Shown here piece by piece: positions 2,498 through 44,301 of a stretch of DNA of 64,000 bases. The notes beneath the pieces were generated by a model that was not told the origin of the DNA, did not search any database, and saw nothing but the letters and a program-made list of their open reading frames with translations. The position numbers and the translations under genes were made by a program. Each line of letters starts with the position of its first letter. The first letter of the stretch is position 1. The DNA comes from a virus, in the IMG/VR virus record IMGVR_UViG_3300036800_000031, positions 1-64,000 of that record, one strand, 5' to 3'.

Positions 2498-3205
2498 CTA
2501 GTGGCCGGTGCCGTGGCTGCCGATGGTGGACCCTCCAACCGACCCTCCGGAACCGCCGGGCTTGGCCGCTTCCCGTTGGGACTCGTCATACTCGGGAGCG
2601 AGTCCGGTCGTTCGGGTCTGTCCGATCACCGACGACATCCCGGCGTAAGCCGCTTCAACTCCACCGCTGTCGGCGGCAAAGTTAATCGAAGACATCCGGG
2701 CAATGCCCATGTCCCGAGCCACCGTGATCGCGTCCTGGTTGGCCCCGAGGTAGGTGAAGTGCCACCCCTCCGCCGTCTTGGTTTCGATCAGCGCCTTCAC
2801 CTTGCCGATGTCCCATTCACGGGATGAGTTTTCCTCACCATCCGTGATGATGGCGACGATGACTTCGGAGGGCTTGTAGGCCGTGGCCTGCTGGGCTTCT
2901 CCCACTGCGACGACGGTACGCCCGATGGCGTCCAGGAGGGCCGTACCTCCACGGGGGATCAACTCGTAGCTGTCGATGCTTTCGATGTTCAAGACGTTCG
3001 CCAGTAGCTCGTACTCGGTGTCGAACTGCACCATCGTGACAAAGCACTTTCCGGGCAGCTTGGCCTGGTCCTCGAACAGCCGCTTGATGCCGCCTTCCAT
3101 GTCCTGCTTAATCGGCATCATGGAGCCGGAGCGGTCAACGATGAGGACGAGCCAGGTTCCGGCGGTCCTCCCGAGGCCTTTGGCGGGCTTCAGTTTCAGG
3201 GTCAT
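2498..3205 (-). CDS. von Willebrand factor A domain protein
   Basis: 235 residues. The MIDAS metal site is visible: DRSGSM near residues 24-29, a Thr in GGTALLDAI near residue 85 and ITDGEEN near residue 118. These define a vWA domain spanning roughly residues 15-190. The tail is Gly/Ser/His-rich and probably flexible. vWA proteins bind partners through a metal ion; here it sits between the TET-like oxygenase and the glycosyltransferase, so it may organise the modification enzymes, which is inference. Start codon overlaps the stop of the upstream small gene. Confidence 0.9.
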   Translation of the reverse strand: MTLKLKPAKGLGRTAGTWLVLIVDRSGSMMPIKQDMEGGIKRLFEDQAKLPGKCFVTMVQFDTEYELLANVLNIESIDSYELIPRGGTALLDAIGRTVVAVGEAQQATAYKPSEVIVAIITDGEENSSREWDIGKVKALIETKTAEGWHFTYLGANQDAITVARDMGIARMSSINFAADSGGVEAAYAGMSSVIGQTRTTGLAPEYDESQREAAKPGGSGGSVGGSTIGSHGTGH

Positions 3206-3426
3206 GGTGTTCCTTTCGGTTGGTTTTTTCGGGCAAGACAGCGTTCATTTTTGTCCGTCCCGTAGAAGACGAGGAGTTTCTTCTTCTCCCGGCCTTCGGG
3301 GGCGAACCGGCCGTGGCCGTCGTCCGCCGGTATGTCGGTCTCACGCTCTTCCCGGGTAGCCCCGCAGAAACAGCAAGTGCTGTCGATGTCCGGAGGAGTG
3401 CCCACGTCATGCCAGCAGTGGTTCAC
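3202..3426 (-). CDS. Small zinc-binding protein
   Basis: 74 residues with NHCWHD at the N-terminus and CCFCG near residue 20, a likely zinc site. The start is the GTG at 3426, which overlaps the TGA of the dioxygenase gene (GTGA); the stop overlaps the ATG of the vWA gene. This two-sided coupling puts it firmly inside the modification operon. Function unknown. Confidence 0.7.
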   Translation of the reverse strand: MNHCWHDVGTPPDIDSTCCFCGATREERETDIPADDGHGRFAPEGREKKKLLVFYGTDKNERCLARKNQPKGTP

Positions 3427-39861: not shown

Positions 39862-40059
39862 GACAGACCTCTTTCGATTGAATCAGGGAACGGACGCCCG
39901 GATAGGCGATCCAACGCTCTCCCGACGGTCAATCGGACCTGTCGTGGGGTGCTGAGGAGAAAGGTAGCGCAAGGAAGGGAGGAGGGTATGGGATACCCCC
40001 GAACGCGAAACGACCGGAGCCTTTTGGACCCCGGCCGAATCGCCTTCACAGTACCTACG
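39862..40059. promoter_or_regulatory. Capsid upstream region with dyad
   Basis: 198 bases between the tRNA array and capsid gene. Contains a perfect palindrome GGGTAT-GGG-ATACCC (39984-39998) and, on the minus strand, TTGACC upstream of CTATCC, a possible weak promoter. A separate promoter here would let capsid be transcribed apart from the tRNAs. Confidence 0.4.
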
Positions 40060-40130
40060 TGGCGGAGGGGAGACTCGAACTCCCGACTTCCTGGTTATGA
40101 GCCAGACGGGCTGCCGCTGCCCTACTCCGC
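40060..40130 (-). tRNA. tRNA-Met(CAT)
   Basis: Cloverleaf with loop CTCATAA, T-loop TTCGAGT and encoded CCA. Acceptor GCGGAG pairs six of seven. Elongator-like, short variable loop. The HNH gene upstream ends inside its 5' strand (stop TAG at 40122). Confidence 0.85.
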
Positions 40131-40661
40131 TGTGCTCATAGAAGCTACCAGGGTGGGCCTACCGATAGCAAGGTATGGCTCCCAAGCGGGGTCTGGCCGG
40201 ATTTTCAGGAGGTGGGCAGCGACGCCCTTGGGCCGGAAAGGGGTGTTGTGAAGTTCCCATCCCAGCGAGTCCAGGGTCTGGTGGCCCTTCTTCTGATTGC
40301 ATCTCCGGCAACAAGCGGTGACGTTCTCCCAGGTGTGCTTTCCACCGAGCGCCCTGGGGACGATGTGGTCGATGGTGCCGTCCTGGCGGACGTCCTTCTG
40401 GCAGTAGCCACACCGGTACCCATCTCGGGCACAGACGTTGGAAGTGATGAGCATGATGCTCCGGTGCTTCTCGGGCATCACGACGTACTTCCGAAGGACG
40501 AGGACCGAGGGGACCATGACCTGAGTAGACGGAGAGCGGAAGACTTCACCGCTGTATTCGATGGGGTCGGCAAGCTCCTCCAGGTAAAGCTCGACAGCAT
40601 CCCGGTCGCGAATGATCGCGAGGGGTTCTCTGCTGGCGTTCAGGAGGAGCGCCCTGTTCAT
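40122..40661 (-). CDS. HNH endonuclease
   Basis: 179 residues. RDGYRCGYCQKDVRQDGTIDHIVPRALGGKHTWENVTACCRRCNQKKG is a full HNH domain with two CxxC zinc pairs and the catalytic His of DHIVPR (near residues 95-140). The N-terminal part (LLNASREPLAIIRDRDAVELY) resembles actinobacterial HNH proteins. Its stop codon TAG is taken from the tRNA-Met 5' strand. Probably a free-standing homing-type nuclease. Confidence 0.88.
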   Translation of the reverse strand: MNRALLLNASREPLAIIRDRDAVELYLEELADPIEYSGEVFRSPSTQVMVPSVLVLRKYVVMPEKHRSIMLITSNVCARDGYRCGYCQKDVRQDGTIDHIVPRALGGKHTWENVTACCRRCNQKKGHQTLDSLGWELHNTPFRPKGVAAHLLKIRPDPAWEPYLAIGRPTLVASMSTAE

Positions 40662-41837: not shown

Positions 41838-41910
41838 TGGTTCCCGCCGGGATCGAACCGACGCCTTCCGGGCTTCAACCGGACGCTGCTGCCAACTAAG
41901 CTAGAGAACC
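41838..41910 (-). tRNA. tRNA-Phe(GAA)
   Basis: Loop TTGAAGC on TCCGG/CCGGA, acceptor GGTTCTC/GGGAACC (one wobble), T-loop TTCGATC. Its 3' acceptor strand pairs perfectly with the tRNA 5' half at 42380-42416, showing that an HNH insertion split an older copy and supplied this 5' half. Confidence 0.86.
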
Positions 41911-42368
41911 TTGTTTTTTCTCCCCCGCCAGGTCGGCGTAAGGGCATGGCAGTTGGGGCATAGGATCGCCAGGTTCTCGATCCGGTGATCGTCCTTCACC
42001 CCGTTCATATGGTCAACCTCCAGTGGTATTGGCTGACCCATCCACTGGACCCGCTTGCACTCTTTACATTGACGCTTCCGCCCCTGCGCCAAGAGAATGG
42101 GCAGGAGGTGATAGGTCGGGTAGGTCGAGTTCTCGCAAAAGATTTCCTCCAGCGTGCGCCGACGAAGGGGCGCTCCACGGGTACCAACCCAGGACTGCCC
42201 GGTGAAGTGGCTGACATCGGCCCCAAGCCGCTTTGCATGTCTCTGGACCGAGCCGTAGTTGCCTCCGGCGAGATTAAGGCCGACTCCCCTGACTACCTGC
42301 GCCCAACTGGTCGAGGCGACGATGGCCTCCAGTAGCTCGGAATCGGTCCATGACCTCGGCTTGCCCAT
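41901..42368 (-). CDS. HNH endonuclease inserted in tRNA-Phe
   Basis: 155 residues. N-terminal DNA-binding region (SWTDSELLEAIVASTSWAQ), then a C-terminal HNH: CKECKRVQWMGQ, LEVDHMNGVKDDHRIENL and CPNCHALTPTW. The last codons and the stop TAG come from the 5' strand of tRNA-Phe; ATG 42368 starts just after a tRNA 5' half. Same subfamily as the broken copy at 43866-44301. A homing-type nuclease targeting the tRNA anticodon region is likely. Confidence 0.85.
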   Translation of the reverse strand: MGKPRSWTDSELLEAIVASTSWAQVVRGVGLNLAGGNYGSVQRHAKRLGADVSHFTGQSWVGTRGAPLRRRTLEEIFCENSTYPTYHLLPILLAQGRKRQCKECKRVQWMGQPIPLEVDHMNGVKDDHRIENLAILCPNCHALTPTWRGRKNKVL

Positions 42369-42379
42369 GCCGTAGTCTA

Positions 42380-42416
42380 CCGTTACGGACGCTCTCCCTG
42401 ACTGAGCTAGGGAACC
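42380..42416 (-). pseudogene. tRNA-Phe 5' half (split remnant)
   Basis: GGTTCCC, D-arm GCTC/GAGC and the first bases of the anticodon stem (GTCCG) match tRNA-Phe at 41838-41910, then the sequence changes to that of the HNH cassette. No 3' half follows directly. The break falls in the anticodon arm. Confidence 0.75.
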
Positions 42417-42417
42417 T

Positions 42418-42492
42418 TGGTGCGGCCCGGAGGAATCGAACCCCATCCGAGAGGGCATAAGCCTCTCTGCGGCCACCAGCCGCACGAGCCGC
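42418..42492 (-). tRNA. tRNA-Ile(TAT)
   Basis: Loop CTTATGC on AGAGG/CCTCT, acceptor GCGGCTC/GGGCCGC, CCA encoded. Reads AUA directly, so lysidine modification is not needed. Confidence 0.84.
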
Positions 42493-42493
42493 A

Positions 42494-42566
42494 TGGAGCC
42501 GTCGCTGGGGGTCAAACCCAGCCGGGCGTCGTTACAAAGGACACCTCCGCATCGGGCGGCGACGGC
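42494..42566 (-). tRNA. tRNA-Thr(TGT), divergent
   Basis: Acceptor GCCGTCG/CGACGGC perfect and CCA encoded. Loop TTTGTAA, but the closing pair 31-39 is C-C; D-arm is CCGC/GCGG and the T-loop TTTGACC lacks C56. Anticodon TGT is my best reading. Confidence 0.65.
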
Positions 42567-43900: not shown

Positions 43901-44301
43901 CTGCTCGGGCTCGAACGGTGTTCTTGCCCTTGTAGGTTTCCGTCTGAGCGTGACAGTTCGCGCAGAGCAGACGGAGATTCTCGATGCGGTGGTCATCGTT
44001 GATCCATCTCCAACGGAGCTGGCTCGCCGTTCCATTCGGTCAGGCCACACCGATCACACTTCGGCTGCTTGATCCCCTCTCGGAGAAGCCGCCGTTTCAC
44101 GTTGCCGGTGCTGTAGGTGGAGTGCTCCACTAGCACCGACTCCAGGGACCTCTGGTTGCCCCGTGGGGTCGCCCACGGCCTCGTGTGGGAGGTCGAGCAA
44201 CTGATGGAGCAGTAGGCCCGCTGGGTCTGAGACAGGAAGTTGTGACAGGAGCCATTCCCGCAAACATGCTGGCTGCGACCAGCGATCGGGAGCCAACTCA
44301 T
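43866..44301 (-). pseudogene. Frameshifted HNH endonuclease
   Basis: Intact first frame from ATG 44301: CGNGSCHNFLSQTQRAYC, LESVLVEHSTYSTGNVKRRLL, KCDRCGLTEWNGEPAPLEMD, then QR and a stop. The next frame continues with DDHRIENLRLLCANCHAQTETYKG, so a short deletion removed the catalytic His segment and the frame. Homologous to the intact gene at 41901-42368. The second frame ends in the anticodon loop of tRNA-Ser(TGA). Confidence 0.8.

Follow-up and report, generated by a model that had tools for sequence, protein, structure and literature searches.

An HNH endonuclease gene lies between a stranded 5' half and an intact copy of a phage tRNA-Phe gene

The closest known kind of element to the locus described here is found among the mobile endonuclease ORFs of fungal mitochondria, which form hybrid genes with atp6 in Allomyces and with atp6, atp9, cox2 and nad3 in Glomus, bringing a diverged substitute gene end while the native end stays behind as a remnant (PMC3630166). 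In our literature search, which covered few subscription papers, this substitute-end plan was not found reported for a tRNA gene or for a phage, nor was any report found of a phage tRNA gene split and restored in this way. In the T-even phages, SegB is a free-standing GIY-YIG endonuclease of the tRNA region (PMC13096335, PMC2330249) which, in the accessible text, is said to cut inside tRNA genes and to drive their inheritance (PMC13096335). SegB belongs to another enzyme family than the HNH protein studied here, and the accessible text describes no orphan half with a restored tRNA for it. HNH homing endonucleases are also known in phage tRNA regions (PMC3326045, PMC6409571), the available text on one such case mentioning no orphan half, while the Felix O1 genome paper, in its available part, reports six HNH genes and draws no link to tRNA replacement (PMC3185647).

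The window analysed here is a 64-kb stretch of an 89-kb virus record. It contains 35 tRNA genes, 34 of which lie on the minus strand at 40-46.4 kb. Within this array we found, in minus-strand order, tRNA-Ile(tat), an orphan tRNA 5' half, an HNH gene and an intact tRNA-Phe, with the following parts:

42418..42492, minus strand: tRNA-Ile(tat), the upstream neighbour, which is directly upstream of tRNA-Phe in the HNH-less relative L003 too
42386..42416, minus strand: orphan tRNA-Phe 5' half GGTTCCCTAGCTCAGTCAGGGAGAGCGTCCG, which comprises the acceptor strand, the D arm and the first part of the anticodon stem
42386..42393, minus strand: left copy of AGCGTCCG, an 8-bp repeat found on either side of the insert
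42369..42385, minus strand: junction spacer TAACGGTAGACTACGGC, the 17 nt of sequence from the orphan half to the HNH ATG
41901..42368, minus strand: HNH endonuclease gene (155 aa), an ORF with its ATG at 42368 and its stop within tRNA-Phe
41880..41910, minus strand: second (putative replacement) 5' half, shared by the intact tRNA-Phe and the HNH 3' end
41880..41887, minus strand: right copy of the 8-bp repeat AGCGTCCG
41838..41879, minus strand: tRNA-Phe 3' half, probably the resident one (ARAGORN and Rfam RF00005)

The intact tRNA-Phe(gaa), at about 41836/41838-41910 (minus strand), is called by ARAGORN and matches Rfam RF00005 with 53.3 bits over the whole tRNA. Unlike a gene that harbours a group I intron-encoded endonuclease, it is already complete downstream without removal of the insert. 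An earlier, sequence-only reading of the locus had proposed that the last codons and the stop of the HNH gene are the 5' strand of this tRNA, and this is indeed the case: the ORF ends with ..AAC AAG GTT CTC TAG, in which the last base of AAG followed by GTT CTC TAG makes up tRNA-Phe positions 1-10, the stop codon occupying positions 8-10. The orphan half begins one base past tRNA-Ile(tat), and two 5' halves are thus present for a single 3' half. With introns allowed, ARAGORN joins the orphan half to the tRNA-Phe 3' half, giving a tRNA-Phe with a 506-nt insert that consists of the HNH ORF and a tRNA 5' half only. The insert lacks an integrase gene, a trait of the integrase-driven islands that restore a tRNA end, and no group I ribozyme (RF00028) was matched in the window even at E<=1, with L016 recovered as a positive control (E 2.4e-11).

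The pairing of the orphan half assigns it to tRNA-Phe rather than to another tRNA. As the earlier reading had noticed, its acceptor strand fits the tRNA-Phe 3' strand GGGAACC perfectly, with 7/7 Watson-Crick pairs. No other tRNA of the array does so, the next best of the window's 35 tRNAs reaching 5 pairs, wobbles included. By searching for acceptor complementarity together with a D arm, we found that the orphan is the top-scoring site of the window on either strand, outscoring tRNA-Phe's own 5' half, and that 60 shuffled 64-kb strands contain one site at its score, that is ~4e-5 per 150 nt. This pairing search was needed, as a general 5'-half profile missed the window's own orphan. The anticodon-stem strand of the orphan, TCCG, also complements CGGA of the tRNA-Phe 3' half, and the 3' strand is slightly better matched to the orphan (C6-G67) than to the intact 5' strand (U6.G67). 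The orphan had been placed at 42380-42416; the half is real, but recognisable tRNA stops at 42386, 6 nt short of 42380. Its end lies in the stem, 3-4 nt short of the anticodon, which counts against a cut at the anticodon itself. Since the two 5' halves are only ~77% alike while the acceptor and D arm of the orphan are undamaged, with a perfect D stem, a foreign origin of the second half seems favoured over a recent local duplication.

The window HNH protein is a full-length member of PHROG 10822 (E 1.5e-40 over residues 4-154), scores above cut-off for Pfam PF01844 and carries two CxxC motifs. Residues C102, C105, H121, N133, C138, C141 and H142 are invariant in the HNH alignment, so that the zinc and HNH residues are intact. 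Three scans with HNH alignments, together with phage records, provided 158 distinct HNH kin, picked by protein similarity alone. As many as 120 of the 158 adjoin or sit within same-strand tRNA genes, most commonly tRNA-Leu, compared to only 12 that have a tRNA on the opposite strand within that range. Of 60 HNH-tRNA pairs, 29 have the HNH stop within the tRNA, exactly at position 10 in 10 of them. Over the 150 nt upstream of these HNHs, isolated tRNA 5' halves, a count that includes intron 5' exons, reach 1.10 per kb vs 0.06 elsewhere (18-fold), and none was found on the other strand upstream of HNHs.

About 20 of the HNH kin are bracketed by the 5' and 3' halves of a tRNA, mostly tRNA-Leu(UAA) broken at the anticodon, with inserts of about 690-950 nt in the tRNA-Leu(UAA) cases. 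Group I ribozymes were recognised around the HNH in three of them (L015, L055 and L016); none of the other tRNA-inserted HNHs that were tested reached E 0.05 in the larger scan. In Dulem virus 42 (L009, 2895-3512), tRNA-Leu(UAA) is interrupted at its anticodon by the HNH gene, no ribozyme being recognised, and the UAA stop codon of the HNH gene is also the anticodon of the tRNA. Given that the insertions of the kin, whether introns or the plain Dulem virus 42 case, mostly break at the anticodon, the anticodon arm of tRNAs is where the insertion sites of this HNH family cluster. These kin support indirectly, through their positions in sequence, that the anticodon may also be the target of the window HNH. 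The intron-borne HNHs of tRNA-Leu(UAA) in related viral contigs belong to the same family and share the same anticodon target region, but a group I intron splices out, whereas the window is without ribozyme and its tRNA seems to have been rebuilt at the DNA level. The locus would be one outcome without a ribozyme for a family of HNH genes that are found in group I introns at tRNA anticodons as well. A tree, quickly made and unfinished, was also examined. Among its members, the window HNH has its highest identity, 48%, to an intron-borne HNH; the cases with a restored tRNA are spread over the tree, where well-supported branches require at least four changes, and one of them, L088, is sister to an intron-borne HNH. 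In phage Aeh1, the HNH-type gene mobE is reportedly inserted in nrdA without an intron, and the gene works in pieces. This gene stays split whereas the window restores a complete gene copy, and the split tRNA-Leu of Dulem virus 42 is nearer to the mobE/nrdA outcome than the window is.

The plan of the window (orphan 5' half, HNH gene, intact tRNA of the same isotype) is repeated independently by about eight HNH kin, in unrelated phages. The isotype is Ser in L087, where the orphan pairs at ~6/7 by eye, and Leu in L069 (7/7 with two wobbles), L022 (6/7, with a decayed orphan), L032, L088, L139 and L168. The orphans of L032, L088 and L168 fail to pair with the downstream tRNA, which suggests that replacement of the whole tRNA probably also occurs. 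The mirror plan, in which an intact tRNA would be followed by an HNH gene and an orphan 3' half, gave no convincing case. Running ARAGORN on joined orphan 5' and 3' halves was uninformative as a test, as about half or more of unrelated 3' halves were also called, and the idea of a short tRNA-Leu travelling with the HNH was rejected because such tRNAs are not enriched near HNH genes.

Alleles with and without the HNH gene were found for the kin in Felix O1-like, Otagovirus and Pakpunavirus pairs, and for the window by comparison with L003. In cultured Felix O1-like phages, one locus exists as three alleles with closely similar flanks: tRNA type 1, tRNA type 2, and a type 1 stub followed by HNH and type 2. 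In EcoM2, allfine, FelixO1 and Mordin, the tRNA-Leu is of type 1 (AATGGGAGATTGAYGGTAATTGG..) and uninterrupted. Mijalis carries the type 2 tRNA-Leu (AATGCACCTATAGCCCAATTGG..) without HNH. In SP22, pSJ21 and Michonne, a stub AATGGGAGATTGAC precedes the HNH gene and then a whole type 2 tRNA (GATTTAATGCACCTATAGCCC..). We take this to be the same event as in the window, except that the stub is shorter and the replacement tRNA is whole. Mijalis could represent the donor type before HNH arrival or a later loss through recombination between GATTTAATG repeats. In phiPsa347, the HNH gene and both flanking tRNAs replace a segment of phiPsa374 between 99.8%-identical flanks. Rescue of the tRNA is not universal: in LCK69 the HNH replaced tRNA-Trp, which is lost except for its tail, and in Dulem virus 42 tRNA-Leu is plainly split. 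The tRNA-Gly(gcc) genes of Jollison (L260, with HNH, which adjoins this tRNA) and Starbow (L261, without) differ in the anticodon arm only, on both strands together; judging from these sequences, it looks as if the target site had been altered. The tRNA-Leu(tag) genes of GodonK (L007) and Phendrix (L253) share the 5' half and the acceptor, but not the stretch that runs from anticodon stem to T arm, beside the HNH. We rejected this pair as a clean before/after comparison, because the Phendrix spacer holds an apparent HNH 3' end and tRNA-Glu is identical; from that remnant, Phendrix probably lost the HNH gene.

No close DNA relative of the window phage was found in phage and plasmid collections. 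Scans with the major capsid protein (MCP) gave five nearest relatives, of which only L003 (also L251) carries a tRNA array; its MCP is 65% identical to that of the window phage. The search for an HNH-less relative with an uninterrupted tRNA, which the earlier reading had suggested as a check, thus led to L003, where, in the syntenic region, a spacer of 49 bp separates tRNA-Ile(tat) from a single tRNA-Phe, and both the HNH gene and the orphan half are absent. Being too distant, L003 shows the position of the empty site and not the exact ancestral sequence.

Taking these observations together, we consider it likely that a homing-type HNH gene invaded tRNA-Phe, leaving the resident 5' half, the HNH gene and an intact tRNA-Phe with a second 5' half. 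This supports the sequence-only reading of the locus, in which cutting of DNA is an inferred step. The HNH protein would cut the tRNA-Phe gene within its anticodon arm, and the break would be repaired from a donor phage whose HNH gene already overlapped its own tRNA-Phe. Repair would join within the tRNA on the 3' side and beyond the stranded half on the 5' side. As the HNH gene runs into the tRNA, the HNH and the tRNA 5' strand would move together and the tRNA would survive. Which products come to be observed is probably governed by selection for a functional tRNA, since losses of tRNAs occur as well. The proposal that the cassette carried in a replacement 5' half is supported at this locus but is not general, since other cassettes bring a whole tRNA or none, so that carriage of a 5' half is one of several outcomes.

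The main rival left is that two neighbouring tRNA-Phe genes stood in tandem, the HNH hitting the first, whose 3' half was lost, and the second remaining untouched with nothing carried in. Repeated isoacceptors do occur in phage arrays, and related tRNA-Phe genes could share an acceptor sequence that gives the 7/7 pairing. However, L003, the only array-bearing relative, has a single tRNA-Phe; the 3' strand suits the orphan better than its own 5' half; and the HNH stop lies inside tRNA-Phe, from which it follows that the HNH gene arrived with this tRNA or grew into it. The two Felix O1-like tRNAs are, moreover, alleles of one locus and not tandem genes. We therefore regard a tandem origin as unlikely. 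Somewhat less likely still is a decayed group I intron, in which the HNH gene was once intron-borne with the orphan as 5' exon, the ribozyme then being lost and the tRNA restored afterwards. Such an origin would agree with the group I introns that related HNHs occupy at tRNA anticodons, with the place of L088 on the tree as sister to an intron-borne HNH and with the 48% identity noted above, but a search that finds the L016 ribozyme matches nothing in the window, nothing but a second tRNA 5' half accompanies the HNH gene in the insert, and the orphan ends in the stem rather than at the intron site in the loop.

It is very improbable that the orphan is a leftover from some unrelated tRNA, with HNH and tRNA-Phe simply being neighbours. 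Decay of tRNAs is common in phage arrays and the D arm of the orphan matches tRNA-Thr(ggt) over 20 bases, yet an acceptor pairing of 7/7 with tRNA-Phe alone has the very low chance expectation given above, and the plan recurs elsewhere with matching isotype. We attach equally little weight to the orphan being kept for a function, such as a trans-acting tRNA half or a decoy. Its undamaged, fully complementary acceptor and D arm might hint at one, but a recent insertion accounts for this intact state, and the orphans of L022 and SP22 are decayed or cut to 11-12 nt, as debris would be.

The probable invasion of tRNA-Phe by the HNH gene resembles the fungal mitochondrial ORFs in having an endonuclease in a host gene, a substitute for the displaced part and the native part left as a remnant. 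The fungal enzymes are LAGLIDADG or GIY-YIG and replace the 3' end of protein genes, whereas here an HNH gene would have replaced the 5' half of a phage tRNA gene, and, unlike in the fungal cases, the endonuclease stop lies inside the restored RNA gene. With its HNH enzyme and tRNA target, the window works like the fungal elements and is not filed as a member of them. The invasion shows a route by which a selfish nuclease could settle in a short RNA gene without splicing; it would account for the orphan halves of tRNAs in phage arrays and for HNH genes there whose stop codon falls within a tRNA, and would provide a route for remodelling of tRNA arrays and swaps of isoacceptors. The many sequenced alleles of a single kind of insertion site also make it possible to test whether a free endonuclease or a mobile intron came first, which is an old question. 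We suggest, tentatively and with more doubt than confidence, that the HNH family homes into tRNA anticodon loops and spares the tRNA either by a self-splicing intron or by a substitute, cut-resistant part or whole tRNA, with lineages switching between the two. If true, engineered 'cleave and rescue' drives would have a natural counterpart in the substitute-tRNA route.

Other features of the array were also observed. A second, frame-shifted HNH gene of the same family lies at 43993-44301 (minus strand), reading on to 43900, between tRNA-Ser(gct) and tRNA-Ser(tga); in the other frame it extends into tRNA-Ser(tga), where it would stop at the TGA anticodon, and L003 is without tRNA-Ser(tga). A different HNH (PF14279), at 40059-40661 (minus strand), also ends at tRNA positions 8-10, here of the tRNA-Met at 40059-40131, and in L003 this HNH occupies the corresponding place without a tRNA-Met following it. 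The L003 array (1458-1645, 2988-3364) includes a tmRNA gene and two tRNAs with a CTA anticodon (called Pyl), which would read UAG. Finally, tRNA-Gln and tRNA-Ile(tat) are separated by a seemingly degenerate tRNA-Thr(tgt) at 42494-42566 (minus strand), whose counterpart at this place in L003 is intact.
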